Below, piece after piece: positions 57,105-64,000 of a stretch of 64,000 nucleotides of DNA. The stretch spans positions 868,001 through 932,000 of the forward strand of contig NZ_CP016312.1 of assembly GCF_001880325.1 (NCBI RefSeq). Reading direction: 5' to 3'. Each line of letters opens with the position of its first letter. Within the stretch, counting starts at the first letter, position 1. A program made the position numbers and the translations under genes. Origin of the DNA: Thermus brockianus (GTDB lineage Bacteria; Deinococcota; Deinococci; Deinococcales; Thermaceae). A model generated the notes under the pieces. The model was not told the origin of the DNA. It made no database searches and saw nothing but the letters and a program-made list of their open reading frames with translations.

Positions 57105-57924
57105 GGAGCTCCCGGGCTTCCGGGGCAAGGGGGGTCTTCTCCAGGTAGACCTCCACCCCCCGGCGCACCCTCTCGGGGGGCCTACCCGCGGGCCAAGGGG
57201 AAGGCAAGCCCTCGCCTTCCCCCTCCCCCGGGGGAAGGAGACCCGCTTCCTCCCCTTGGGGCGTCGGGGGAAGGACGGGGGGACCCTGTTGGACGTCCCC
57301 CGTGCCCGAACCCACCCCTCCCCTAGGGCCCGGGGAAGCCCCGCTGGCGCCCTCCCCTTGCGAAGGGCCCACCTCTCCCGAAGTGCCGCCCTGGGAAGCG
57401 GGGGCCTCCCCTTCCCTCCGGAAGGAGCCCCCACCCTGGCCCGGGGAAGAGCCCCTCTCCGAAGCCCCATCCCTCCCCGTCTCCTCCCCCCTAGCTTGCG
57501 AGGCACCCTCTTCCCTCCCCGAAGCCCCTTGGGGCGTGGCGGGCCGCTCCAGGCGTGGGAGGGCCCACCCGCCCCCCGCCCCTTCCGCCCGCCAGGCGGC
57601 GAGGAGGAGGGCTAGCACCAGGGCCAAGAGGTAGAGGAAGAGAAGGCCAAGGGGAAAGGGCGGAAGCCTAAGGGGGGCCTTCCTTGCCTCCGCCCAAAGC
57701 CGCTCCTCCCCGTAGGCGAGGGCGGTGGGGTAGGCGAGGCTCACCCGGCTGATCTCCCAAAGAGCCCTCCCCTCCCACAGGCGGGTGGGAAGGAGGAGGC
57801 CCAAGGGGGAAAGGAGGGCGAAAAGGGGGTGGGAAAGGCCCAAGAGGGCGAGGGCCAGGGCCAAAAGGAGGCGGTAGCGCCAGGCGAGGCGGCTGGCGTA
57901 GGCGCGGTGGAAACTGGGGCCCAC
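57079..57924 (-). CDS. Membrane protein with long low-complexity Gly/Ser/Pro/Glu segment
   Basis: A 281-aa protein of unknown function. Two or three membrane segments (about 18-45 and 90-108), then about 120 residues of low complexity (repeats of Gly-Glu, Ser-Gln-Gly, Pro-Arg), then a short ordered end, RRGVEVYLEKTPLAPEARELLRRYF. GTG 57924 is chosen because CATAAT lies 6 nt upstream; TTG 57942 is possible. It starts 8 nt inside the preceding gene's end region. Confidence 0.6.
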   Translation of the reverse strand: MGPSFHRAYASRLAWRYRLLLALALALLGLSHPLFALLSPLGLLLPTRLWEGRALWEISRVSLAYPTALAYGEERLWAEARKAPLRLPPFPLGLLFLYLLALVLALLLAAWRAEGAGGGWALPRLERPATPQGASGREEGASQARGEETGRDGASERGSSPGQGGGSFRREGEAPASQGGTSGEVGPSQGEGASGASPGPRGGVGSGTGDVQQGPPVLPPTPQGEEAGLLPPGEGEGEGLPSPWPAGRPPERVRRGVEVYLEKTPLAPEARELLRRYFAAP

Positions 57925-57931
57925 AAGGGGA

Positions 57932-59387
57932 TTATGGCGCAAAAAGGGCCAGGGCGTTCACCACGGGCCTGGGGCTCCCTTGGTAAGGGCTTCGCAACAC
58001 CCCCTTCACCCAAAGCTGGGCCGAGCCGCCCCCGTCCATCCGGAGGGCGTTCCAGGCCCCCCGGGCGAGGAGGGCCCGGGCCAGGACCCCGGGGGTGGTG
58101 GGCTCGGAAACGAGGAGCCATAGCCGCCCCTCCCTCGTCCAGGCCACCGCCGCCTGGGGGCCACGGCCTGGAGGGGCCTTGGATCCTTGAAGTTCTCCTT
58201 GGCCGGGTCAAAGGCGTACTGGCCCTCCCAGAGGAGCAGGGGCCCCCCTTCCAGGGCGTAGCGGAAGGGGGGTCTAGCCGCCCGTAGAGGCTTAGGCGTT
58301 CCCCCACCGCCAAGGGGAAGGGCGGGGCCCCCTTGGGGAAAGCGAGGGCCCAGGCCCCGGCGGGAAGCTCCGCCGGGGCGGGGAAGAGGGCCTCCACCCG
58401 GTCCCCCCGCACCAGGGCCACCTCCTCCCCCTCCCGCCCCACGGGGCCCGGCACGGTGTGGGCGGTGTAGCGGGCCCGGGAGGCGTTCACCCCCACCCGC
58501 ACCCTTTCCCCCCTGGGCCCCGCCACCACCGCTTCAAAGCGGGGCAGGCCCAGGAAGAAGGTAAATCCATCCCAAAACAGGGCGGCGCGGCCGAAGGGGT
58601 AGGAGACCGTGACCCCGTCCTGGACCCAAAGCCCGATGGGGGTGCCGGTCTTGGGGTCAAAGTAGCCCCCGTTGAGGACGGCCAAGGCCCCTGGGGCCAG
58701 GTCCTTGGGCAAAGCCCGCTTCCCCGGGGTGCCCACGGGCAGAAGCCTCCCCCTTTCCGCCTCCACCAGGTAGAGCCTTAGGGGCTCCGGGGCGAAAGCC
58801 CAGACCTCGCGGTAGCGCACCCCTGGGGCCAGAACCTCCTCCACCTCCGGGGCCAGGGGGTAGAGGTCCAGGACGAGGCGGGGAGGGTCATTCAAAGGAA
58901 ATAGCCGGTAGCGGAGGAGCTTCCCGGGGGCGGAAAGCGTTAGCTCGGTACCCTGGGGAAGAAGCCGCACCGAGGCCGAAACCCCCTTGGGCCAGGGGGC
59001 CTCGAGGGCCTTCGGCGCCAGGTAGGGTAACCGGAGGCGCAGGCCCTCCCGCGCCATGCCCTCCTGAGGGGGCATGGCGGCAGGGCCGGGAAGGTCCAGG
59101 ACAAGGCGGAAGGCCCGCCCCTGGCTCCCAAAGCGGGCCGAGGCCTCAGGTACCTGGAAGTAGCCCAAATCCCTCAGTACCCCCAAGGGGAGCCGCTCCC
59201 TTTCCGGGGCCGGCCAGTCCCCCAAAGGCTCCGCCCACCCCACCCCGGGCACGTACACGAGCCGGACGCCCTCTCCCTCGTACACCCAGGCCCCCCCTTC
59301 CTCCCGGAAGGCGAGGCCAAAGACCCCTGCGGGGAAGCCCTGCCCTAGGGCGAGGCCGAGGAGGAGGAGAAGGGCAAGAAGCCTCAT
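57932..59387 (-). CDS. Exported phosphodiester glycosidase (NAGPA-domain) type protein, frameshifted twice in this sequence
   Basis: Signal peptide (MRLLALLLLLGLALGQG), a beta-rich N-terminal region to about 210, then the NAGPA domain (ALAVLNGGYFDPKTGTPIGLWVQDG; later NALRMDGGGSAQLWV). Two missing bases break it: in the C6 run at 58267-58272 (plus-strand G) and the C5 run at 58156-58160. With both restored the protein reads RLDPPFRYALEGGPLLLWEGQ... and ends NALALFAP, about 485 aa. Both gaps are in C/G runs, so errors are likelier than decay. Function in the envelope is an inference. Confidence 0.75.
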
Positions 59388-59421: not shown

Positions 59422-62297
59422 TTAGCCCTTCACCACGATGAGGGGCCGGAGGCGGGCCACCTTCTTGCCAATCCCCGCCCCCTCCACCGCCTCCACCACC
59501 AGGGACACGTCCTTGTAGGCCTCGGGCATCTCCTCGTCCACCGTGGCCCGGGTGGCAGCCCTGACCAGGATGCCCCTTTCCGCAAGCTCCTTGACCAGGT
59601 TCCGCTCCCTGGCCACCCGCTTCGCCTGGTGCCGGCTCATTTTCCGCCCCGCCCCGTGGCAACTGGAGCCGAAGGAAACCTCCATGGCCCTAGCCGTACC
59701 CGCCAGAACGTAGGAGTAGCGGCCCATATCCCCCGGCACCAGGACGGGCTGGCCCACCTTCCGGTACTCCGGGGGGATCTCCAGGTGGCCAGGCCCAAAG
59801 GCCCGGGTGGCCCCCTTGCGGTGGACCAGGACCCGGCGCCCCCTGTGCTCCTCAAACTTGGCGTTGTTGTGGGCGAGGTCGTAGAGGACCCGGAGGCCGT
59901 GGTCCCGAGGGGCGTAGCCCACCGCCTCAAAGGCCTCCCGCACGAAGTGGGCGATGAGCTGGCGGTTGGCGAAGGCGAAGTTGGCAGCAGCGGCCATGGC
60001 CTGGAGGTAGTCTTCCCCCTCGGGGCTTCGTATGGGGGCAGCGGCGAGCTGCTTGTCCACGAGCTCAATCCCGTACCGAGGGGCTACCTTGAGGAAGCGC
60101 TCCACGTAGTCCTGGCAGACCTGGTGGCCTAGGCCCCGGCTTCCCGTGTGGATGAGGACGGTGATCTGGCCCCTAAAAAGCCCGTAGGCCTCGGCGGCCT
60201 CGAGGTCGTACACCTCGTCCACGTACTGCACCTCCAAGAAGTGGTTGCCGCTTCCCAAGGTGCCGATCTGGGGGGTTCCCCGCTCAAAGGCCCTTTCCGA
60301 GACCTTGTCGGGGTTGGCCCAAGGGAGGCGGCCTTCGGACTCAATGAAGCGCACGTCCTCCGGGTAACCGAAGCCCCGCTTTACCAGCCACCCCGCCCCC
60401 TCCTTAAGGATCTCCTTGAGCTCCCGCTTGCTAAAGCGCACGTCCCGCCTTTCGCTCCCCACCCCGGAGGGCACCAGGCGGTAGAGGGCGTCGGCGAGCT
60501 CCCGCTGGCGGGGGAGGAGGTCTTCCAAGGTGAGGTGGGAGGTCAAAAGGCGGACCCCGCAGTTGGAAACCACGAACCCTTCTGCCACAAAGTTGTGGTC
60601 TGGATGGGCCATGGAAAGGTCGTAAACCCTACCCCCATAGGGCACCCGTTCCACGGCCACCACCCGGTCAAAGAGCATGCCCTCGCAAGCCGCCACGAAC
60701 TCGGGAAAGGTGGGAAAGCCTTGGGGACGGAAGGAACGGCGCTCCTCGTAAAGGGTGCGCTCCACAAAGCGGCGTGAGACCCCAAGCCCCTGGGCGATGG
60801 CCTTCACCGAATAGCCCGCCTTCCGGAGCGCCCAAGCCTTCTTGGCCAGGGCCTCCCGCTCGGCCAGGTGCGCCTCCTTCTTCCGAAGGTAAAAGGCGGC
60901 CAGAAGGGCCAGCCGGGCCTTGGTGGGGGCGTAGGCGTAGCCTATTTCCTCGTAAAGCCGGGCCAGGTTTTCCGGGGTGGATCGGAGGATGAGCTTGAAG
61001 CGGTGGGAAGGGTCCTCCGGCTCCTCCCAATCCGCCTCTTCCCGCAGGTCCTGCACCTCTAATCCCACGGAGGCCAGCAACCGGGCGAGGTCCTGCATAA
61101 AAGCACGTCCCTCTTCCAAGGCGCTTCTGCGCTTGGACTGGGAAAGGACTGGGGGCAGGAGGTTGTAGCCGTGGCCACTCACGGCCCTGGGCGCAGAGAG
61201 TTCCGCCCCGAAAAGCCCCGCTAGAAAGTTGGCCTTAAGCCAAGGGGGAAGGGCAAAAAGCCAAGGCGGGAGCCTAAATCCCTGCTTGGCCCTGGCCCCC
61301 TCGGGAAGCCCGAGGGCGCGGAGAAGGAGAAAGAGGGCGCGGGAGGATATCTTCAGGCTAGCCTCCTCCGCGGAAAAGGCCCGGCCCCGGAAGCTGTGGC
61401 GGCGCCAGCGCAGATAAGGGCCCCCCGCCCGGAAGCCTAGACGCTCCAGATCGGCCTTGGCCTCCAGGAGGCCTTCCCTTGCCCCGTAGAGCACGAGGTA
61501 GGCCTTTCCCCCAGAGCGGTACAGGGTCCCATCCCCCAGGGAGTACCCCATCAAGCGCAAAAGGGCTGGCAGGTGGGGATGGTCTGCCCTAAGAGGGAGA
61601 AGCCCCCGCGCCCGGAGCTCCAAGGGGGCCCGGGGAAAGCCCAGCTCCTTAGCCCAAGCCTCCGCCGCCTCCTCCCCCACAAGGGTCAGGGGAGGAGGCG
61701 GTTCGTAAGGGAGCCCCCGGAAAGGGTGAACCGCCACTTGGTCGCCCGGCCGCAGTTCGCCCAGGGGGCGCATTCCTGCAGGGGTATAGACCGGGTGGTC
61801 GGGGGTGGCCTCGAGGACAAAACCCCCTTCGGTGCGGAGGCGCACCAACTCCTCCCCTTCCCGGGAAAGGAGGAAAAGGGCGCGCGCCGCCTCGGGGCGC
61901 TCCCCTAAGCGCCAGGCCACCAAGAGGGGATCTCGCTCTTGGGCGAGCTCCTCAATGGGCCGCGTGTAGCGGTCGTGGGCTAGGACACGGGTTCCCGGGG
62001 GCAAGCAGTTGATGTCAAACCCCACCCCCCCGGGCTCACCACCCCGCCCACCTCGGGGTCAAAGGCCGCCACCCCCCCGATGGGAAAGCCGTAGCCCCAG
62101 TGGATATCCGGCATGGCCAGGGCCGGCTCCACGATGCCGGGCAGGGTGGCCACGTTCATCAGCTGCTGCAAGGAAGCGTAGTTCTCCGTTTCCAGGTCCC
62201 TTAGGATCTCCTCGGAAGCGAAGAAGATAGCGTCCACCCGCATCTTCCCCTGCCGGGGGATGCGGTAGGTGTAGGGGGCGATCTTTTCAAAGCGCAT
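59422..62297 (-). CDS. rtcB: tRNA-splicing ligase RtcB with an intein; single-base frameshift in this sequence
   Basis: RNA 2',3'-cyclic-phosphate/5'-OH ligase, repairing cut RNAs with GTP and Mn2+. N-extein of 97 residues ([13 protein letters not shown] to VGFDIN), C-extein of 379 ([10 protein letters not shown] to LIVVKG), total about 476, a normal RtcB. Active-site marks: D95-I-N-C98, [21 protein letters not shown], and the guanylylated His in [14 protein letters not shown] 62297 has GGGAGGG before it. The G7 run (C7, 62025-62031 on the plus strand) needs an eighth base to keep frame into the intein. It is the only RNA-ligase gene seen and sits divergent to 23S rRNA. Confidence 0.9.
60562..62007 (-). 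other. RtcB intein (482 aa) with LAGLIDADG-type endonuclease and a helix-turn-helix
   Basis: Begins with Cys in [12 protein letters not shown] right after GFDIN (block A); block B is [15 protein letters not shown] with the TxxH pair; block F is [18 protein letters not shown]; it ends FVVSN before the +1 Cys of the extein. The penultimate residue is Ser instead of His, as in Npu DnaE. In between, [12 protein letters not shown] and [10 protein letters not shown] are the two LAGLIDADG helices, so a homing endonuclease is present; near its end [21 protein letters not shown] looks like a DNA-binding helix-turn-helix. Whether the endonuclease is still active is open. Confidence 0.9.
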
Positions 62298-62307
62298 GGC
62301 GCCCTCC

Positions 62308-62377
62308 CAAAACAAAACCGCCGGGCTTTGGGGCCCGGGCTTATTCTCAAGCTACGCCGATATGCGGTATGCGTCAA
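62308..62377 (-). promoter_or_regulatory. rtcB promoter and possible leader attenuator
   Basis: TTGACG (62372-62377) and TAGCTT (62349-62354) are 17 nt apart. In the short leader, CCGGGC-CCCAAA-GCCCGG (62321-62338) is followed on the minus strand by CGGTTTTGTTTT, which is the form of an intrinsic terminator, and then by the Shine-Dalgarno site and ATG. Confidence 0.6.

Positions 62378-62607: not shown

Positions 62608-64000
<1,393 letters not shown>

Follow-up and report, generated by a model that had tools for sequence, protein, structure and literature searches.

A probable homing intein at the Cys98 site of RtcB in Thermus

Results

An interrupted rtcB gene

The window, by which we mean the whole 64,000-nucleotide stretch of Thermus DNA that was analyzed, carries on its minus strand an rtcB gene interrupted by 482 codons without a stop (60562-62007). 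The translation of this insert starts with CLPPG and ends with VVSN, and the residue after VVSN is the cysteine of the RtcB sequence CGVRLL, equivalent to Cys98. A long frame (59422-62025) continues past the insert as RtcB (PF01139, E 7.6e-147), and a second frame (61980-62315) holds the N-terminal part of RtcB before the insert. The locus consists of the following features:

59422..60561, minus strand: RtcB C-extein, 379 aa plus stop, starting with Cys98 (PF01139, E 7.6e-147; phmmer to TTHA1785 (2epg), E 1e-240)
60562..62007, minus strand: RtcB intein, CLPPG...VVSN (open frame; PF14890 above cut-off; TIGR01445 and TIGR01443 above cut-off; NF038162 positions 95-578; Hint fold, Z 20.1)
62008..62297, minus strand: RtcB N-extein, one base out of frame with the rest (PF01139 positions 1-46; 290 bases against 97 codons in relatives)
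62025..62031, minus strand: G run with the reading-frame break (homopolymer comparison; frame intact in 13 other Thermus copies)

In relatives with an open frame the insert is placed after RtcB residue 97, and the +1 residue is Cys98. The frame of the nearest open relative has 958 aa (97 + 482 + 379), which gives a predicted spliced product of 476 aa (97 + 379). An earlier sequence-only reading of this DNA had arrived at about this product size and had described a 482-residue insert with all splicing blocks, directly before Cys98; its exact coordinates and its placement both hold. T. thermophilus TTHA1785 (2epg) is a 487-residue RtcB without an intein, to which the window C-extein is nearly identical throughout. 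A search of the whole genome of the window found no second RtcB, and the sole archease match in that genome is far from rtcB. A 23S rRNA gene (window 62608-64000) lies on the opposite strand and starts about 310 bases upstream of rtcB; we found no tRNA genes beside the rtcB of a relative.

The site itself has a precedent. According to a passage of PMC4150793, the RtcB of the archaeon Pyrococcus horikoshii (PH1602) is a splicing product with Cys98 at the junction, the insertion lying directly before this residue; therefore the placement given by the sequence-only reading is right and already known from an archaeon, as is its statement that archaeal RtcB hosts an intein at the same site. The hosts differ in domain, and the comparison covers the site of insertion. 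Asp95 and Cys98 had also been named as metal ligands of the archaeal enzyme, and a section of PMC10630183 on P. horikoshii RtcB bears this out: Cys98 ligates both Mn ions and Asp95 one. In the precursor, 482 residues would split Asp95 from Cys98 in the metal site, so splicing should have to precede function, and we can soundly infer that RtcB would be inactive until the intein is excised.

The frame break in the deposited record

In the deposited record rtcB is not one open frame, because the N-extein is one base out of frame at the G run 62025-62031; as the record stands, the gene would yield no complete RtcB. The 13 further Thermus copies whose frame is open are all intact at this run; the T. 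parvatiensis copy (G016) is broken elsewhere, inside the endonuclease. When 62 kb of the window was aligned with one close relative (G010), the only genome used for this comparison, 12 homopolymer runs of at least five lacked one base in the window and 0 had an extra one. In the same alignment, runs of four were short in 5 cases vs long in 5, and the corresponding counts outside runs were 52 vs 44. The gene after rtcB (window 57741-59387) is broken, in comparison with a relative, by two one-base homopolymer deficits near 58156 and 58267.

Because the homopolymer deficits are one-sided, the next gene is broken likewise and the relatives are intact, we read the frame break as probably a sequencing error. 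The same three observations tell against a strain whose rtcB is truly broken, or rescued by slippage in the G run, with RtcB absent or low. The break is present in the record and sits in a homopolymer, and slippage at homopolymers has a precedent in Thermus (dnaX), but we consider this explanation unlikely.

Splicing domains of the intein

The two parts of the splicing domain are as follows:

61693..62007, minus strand: Hint splicing domain, N-terminal half (residues 1-105), with Cys1 and block B Thr68 and His71 (phmmer to the Mtu RecA intein; alignment; block names from PMC4031507)
60562..60690, minus strand: Hint domain, C-terminal part (residues 440-482), with block F Asp463 and His471 and block G Ser481-Asn482 (TIGR01443; alignments)

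Hint profiles were found at the two ends of the insert: Pfam Intein_splicing (PF14890) matched residues 11-482 with 43.9 bits (cut-off 35.8), and NCBIfam TIGR01445 (N-terminal region) and TIGR01443 (C-terminal region) both exceeded their cut-offs. Intein residues 1-95 also matched the Mtu RecA intein (phmmer, E 1.5e-09). The frame and the alignment together contain all class 1 residues, namely Cys1, Thr68, His71, Asp463, His471, Asn482 and the +1 Cys; the roles of the splicing blocks are set out in parts of PMC4031507.

An AlphaFold2 model of the intein, built from a 19-row alignment (mean pLDDT 92.2, pTM 0.91), contains a Hint fold, an endonuclease with two LAGLIDADG motifs and a putative helix-turn-helix (HTH). 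The Hint part resembled mini-inteins at Z of about 20 (DnaB mini-intein: Z 20.1, 1.9 A over 135 residues), and the nearest Foldseek matches of the full chain were the endonuclease-bearing inteins TliVMA (E 1.8e-16), PI-PfuI (5.8e-14) and PI-TkoII (2.1e-13). These three, the best full-length structure matches to the model, occupy other host sites, and their whole-chain rmsd of 13-15 A may mean either that the domains are placed differently or that the alignment mixes domains.

Two RtcB-related systems share the site. NCBIfam NF038162 (RtcB_rel_intein) aligns to the window intein (E 1.6e-101) and, over the long frame, to the exteins as well (E 9.2e-282). Its curated cut-off is 1150 bits; the long frame of the window scored 937.4, and none of the 27 Thermus genomes scored above it (open copies, 999-1074). 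Among 14 non-Thermus genomes 5 exceeded it, as did 1 of the 14 controls. Since its score lies below the cut-off, we file the window intein as a same-site relative and not as a member by that rule. The RtcB intein of Natrinema thermotolerans (CP031304.1) shares with it the site, the VVSN end, the endonuclease and the HTH segment, but its identity to the window intein is 33-34% and an archease gene adjoins it. Judged by its sequence, then, the insert is an intein of an already known kind, lodged at the known RtcB Cys98 site.

Endonuclease, helix-turn-helix and the penultimate serine

Between the two parts of the Hint domain lie these features:

60928..61605, minus strand: LAGLIDADG homing endonuclease domain, about residues 135-360 (PF14528 narrowly under its cut-off, E 0.00046; Foldseek to TliVMA, PI-PfuI and PI-TkoII)
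61528..61554, minus strand: LAGLIDADG motif 1, ...GDG, acid Asp159 (alignments; Asp in 13 of 14 open Thermus copies)
61198..61224, minus strand: LAGLIDADG motif 2, LAGLFGAEL, acid Glu269 (alignments; Glu in 13 of 14 open Thermus copies)
60745..60927, minus strand: predicted helix-turn-helix accessory domain, residues 361-421 (model helices; weak Pfam HTH matches below cut-off)

The Pfam model LAGLIDADG_3 scored 20.8 against a cut-off of 22.5. In the alignments each endonuclease motif has its own acid, Asp159 and Glu269, and both acids are kept in 13 of the 14 open Thermus copies. For the HTH region, the confident whole-intein model gave three helices (361-396, 401-408 and 412-421), and the matches of the whole-intein search to HTH_23, HTH_58, HTH_38 and HTH_7 were all below cut-off. 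HTH-like accessory domains have been described in TliVMA and PI-TkoII, where they extended cleavage to a second site (PMC8966425).

The sequence-only reading had singled out an extra HTH (residues 405-428 of its frame, intein residues 399-422) and a penultimate Ser in place of His. Each description stands as far as it goes: the HTH is predicted by the model in the endonuclease part, and the residue is Ser. Neither is peculiar to the window copy, however. An HTH-length segment occurs in 61 of 64 distinct members of the family, and Ser is penultimate in 14 of 14 open Thermus copies and in 54 of 65 members (His 6, Gly 4, all of them in ribosomal protein uS12, Lys 1), a count biased by the 11 of these 54 Ser rows that came from a scan with a pattern containing AEGFVVSN; outside these rows it is 43 of 54. 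The family-wide alignments thus rule out Ser and HTH as special to the window copy, and the penultimate Ser characterizes most of the RtcB-type intein family. Protein splicing without a penultimate His is reportedly the title subject of a published paper.

Between the window and T. brockianus, dN/dS (Nei-Gojobori estimates throughout) was 0.16 for the endonuclease and 0.21 for Hint. The Thermus copy in G021, in which both acids are lost, gave 0.38 for the endonuclease and 1.22 for the HTH against the window, and shows relaxed change. The HTH value exceeded that of the endonuclease in many pairs, and exceeded 1 in G021 and in the pair G006/G026 (tiny dS); HTH constraint is therefore modest. In a second Thermaceae genus (G049) both acids and the HTH are lost. 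Among the 64 distinct members, the HTH was absent from 2 of the 11 that lack an acid and from 1 of the 53 that have the two acids (Fisher p 0.074; L080 was scored as HTH-keeping by length, though its segment is not HTH-like by eye), a result that is suggestive only of HTH loss going with loss of the endonuclease acids.

Distribution of the intein

Fifteen of 27 Thermus genomes carry the intein, 14 with an open intein frame and one with a broken copy (G016), and 12 are without it; the junction of the empty rtcB site was read in 11 Thermus genomes. Across the phylum Deinococcota, 20 of 111 genomes matched at E 1e-20: the 15 Thermus genomes, G049, a genome with the intein in an RtcB paralog (G029), and three genomes from another family of the same order (G065, G068 and G070). 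A contig scan yielded 19 loci, and in every one RtcB follows the intein; the species include T. brockianus, T. arciformis, T. composti, T. scotoductus, T. caliditerrae and T. parvatiensis. The passages of PMC4071816 that list other Thermus inteins do not contain the term rtcB.

The family is scattered over heat-loving bacteria and archaea. Outside the phylum, the archaeal phylum of G115 gave matches in 27 of 300 genomes, the phylum to which the Anaerolineales genome G111 belongs gave 5 of 301, and the phylum represented by G117 gave 8 of 389. The matched places were RtcB in 25 of 29 cases in the 300-genome archaeal search and in 6 of 8 in the search of 389 genomes, and most junctions were readable. 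We found no copy in phage records, and in viral contigs 14 pattern stretches gave 0 confirmed copies; plasmids yielded a single RtcB intein, that of Natrinema, and a weak match to DnaE.

Some relatives lie in other hosts. The G029 protein, from another Thermaceae genus, is a divergent RtcB-family paralog with a related intein (L084) at the matching site, ending in VVVHN and containing an HTH-like segment. More distant relatives recognized by eye (L135 in G741 and L136 in G837) are apparently in replication factor C and a helicase-like protein. As a by-product, we also observed the RtcB-type intein family in ribosomal protein uS12 (KPNAAVRK/C...LVTGN/CVRVQL). This uS12 intein is present in 4 of 300 genomes of the archaeal phylum (L117, L118, L119 and L121, in G282, G240, G174 and G376). 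Within the archaeal order of G240, 6 of 45 genomes have it, which adds a match in G1110 and a G1119 fragment at a contig end. The intein-bearing uS12 is the sole uS12 in the 4 genomes examined, and NCBIfam puts uS12 and the RtcB-intein model in one protein (E 2.6e-90 for the latter). G282 and G376 also have the RtcB intein, and the uS12 copy of G376 has lost both acids and the HTH, as in G049. A small literature search found no published report of an intein in ribosomal protein S12.

History and transfer

In the intein tree, 18 Deinococcota RtcB copies formed one clade (100/99), which was adjoined by bacterial Anaerolineales and Elusimicrobia copies (81/95), and a wider quick tree (58 rows, seven near-copies left out) again placed the Deinococcota copies together (SH-aLRT 86). 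The host-gene tree of the C-extein, which may be disturbed by conversion around the site, likewise united Deinococcota RtcB (100/100), and its neighbor there was Anaerolineales (88/76); this tree was built without G016 and the G020 fragment, and all trees without the partial L077 and L079. The trees point to long residence in the order and to no recent archaeal gift.

The sequence-only reading had seen a hint of transfer from archaea into Thermus and had called for a tree with archaeal RtcB inteins. In these trees the Deinococcota copies group apart, next to bacterial copies, with no sign of an archaeal donor. Relatives at the same RtcB site in archaea, as counted above, are what would speak for a recent entry into Thermus from an archaeon; with a clade that also takes in a further genus of Thermaceae and three genomes from a different family of the order, and with a nearest outside copy that is bacterial (Anaerolineales, 44-45% identity), we regard such an entry as highly improbable. 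An ancient transfer, in either direction, may still have taken place.

Within the 29-sequence host-gene tree, intein presence and absence required 8 changes (7-8 over bootstrap trees), of which starred branches make at least 5 unavoidable. When the labels were shuffled 500 times, 150 of the shuffles needed as few or fewer; intein presence is therefore unclustered by host. The dS of the intein was 0.10 vs 0.42 for the host gene in G004/G017, and 0.05 vs 0.21 in G022/G007. Values of about one quarter of the host's point to recent transfer or conversion in these two pairs. By point estimates of dS, the intein was lower than the host gene in 14 of 91 pairs and not lower in 77 of 91, so that old residence and loss would account for the greater part of the distribution, and few pairs show clear transfer.

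Discussion

Taken together, the evidence makes it very probable that the element is a class 1 intein with a homing endonuclease of the LAGLIDADG type and a predicted HTH as DNA-binding accessory domain, and that in Thermus it is selfish and in a homing cycle. Splicing and cutting are what we infer for the window intein. After translation, Cys1 would attack the N-terminal junction, the N-extein would be passed to Cys98 of RtcB, and Asn482 would cyclize, here without the usual penultimate His, to release a 476-aa RtcB with its metal site intact. Because of its motifs, the constraint on them and its distribution, the free intein would act as a homing endonuclease, cutting an intein-less rtcB allele and then being copied in by repair. 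In Thermus the cycle would run from entry, through selection for as long as cutting pays, to decay and loss.

The position of the intein invites a second explanation, in which it serves as a switch: splicing at Cys98 would be gated by metal, redox or temperature, and RtcB would be active only when RNA repair is called for. Cys98 is both the +1 nucleophile and a ligand of both Mn ions, and the genome has a single RtcB. Precedents are described in two papers, one in which zinc reversibly blocks the mycobacterial DnaB intein (PMC7360933) and one in which the RadA intein is gated by temperature and ssDNA (PMC5790916). Against this, 12 of 27 Thermus genomes do without the intein, its presence tracks host clades no better than labels shuffled at random, and in most copies the endonuclease remains under constraint, as a selfish element requires. 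Nothing here favors a switch, the patchiness speaks against host dependence, and we think gating quite unlikely. The Thermus pattern suits an element that homes, decays and is lost better than a switch that serves its host.

A broader proposal treats the RtcB-type intein as a homing element of wide range that is helped by its HTH to reach new essential sites, such as the RtcB paralog of G029 and uS12, and adds that the shared cysteine makes RtcB splicing dependent on metal or redox, with activation on demand. As a whole, we judge this very unlikely.

Read as a selfish intein in a homing cycle, the Thermus copies would form a natural series of that cycle at one site: empty, constrained, with both acids lost, and with the HTH lost too. 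The use of one cysteine for both splicing and RNA ligation would make a direct test of metal effects on splicing possible. If the uS12 intein is spliced where it was found, ribosome assembly in those archaea would wait on protein splicing.
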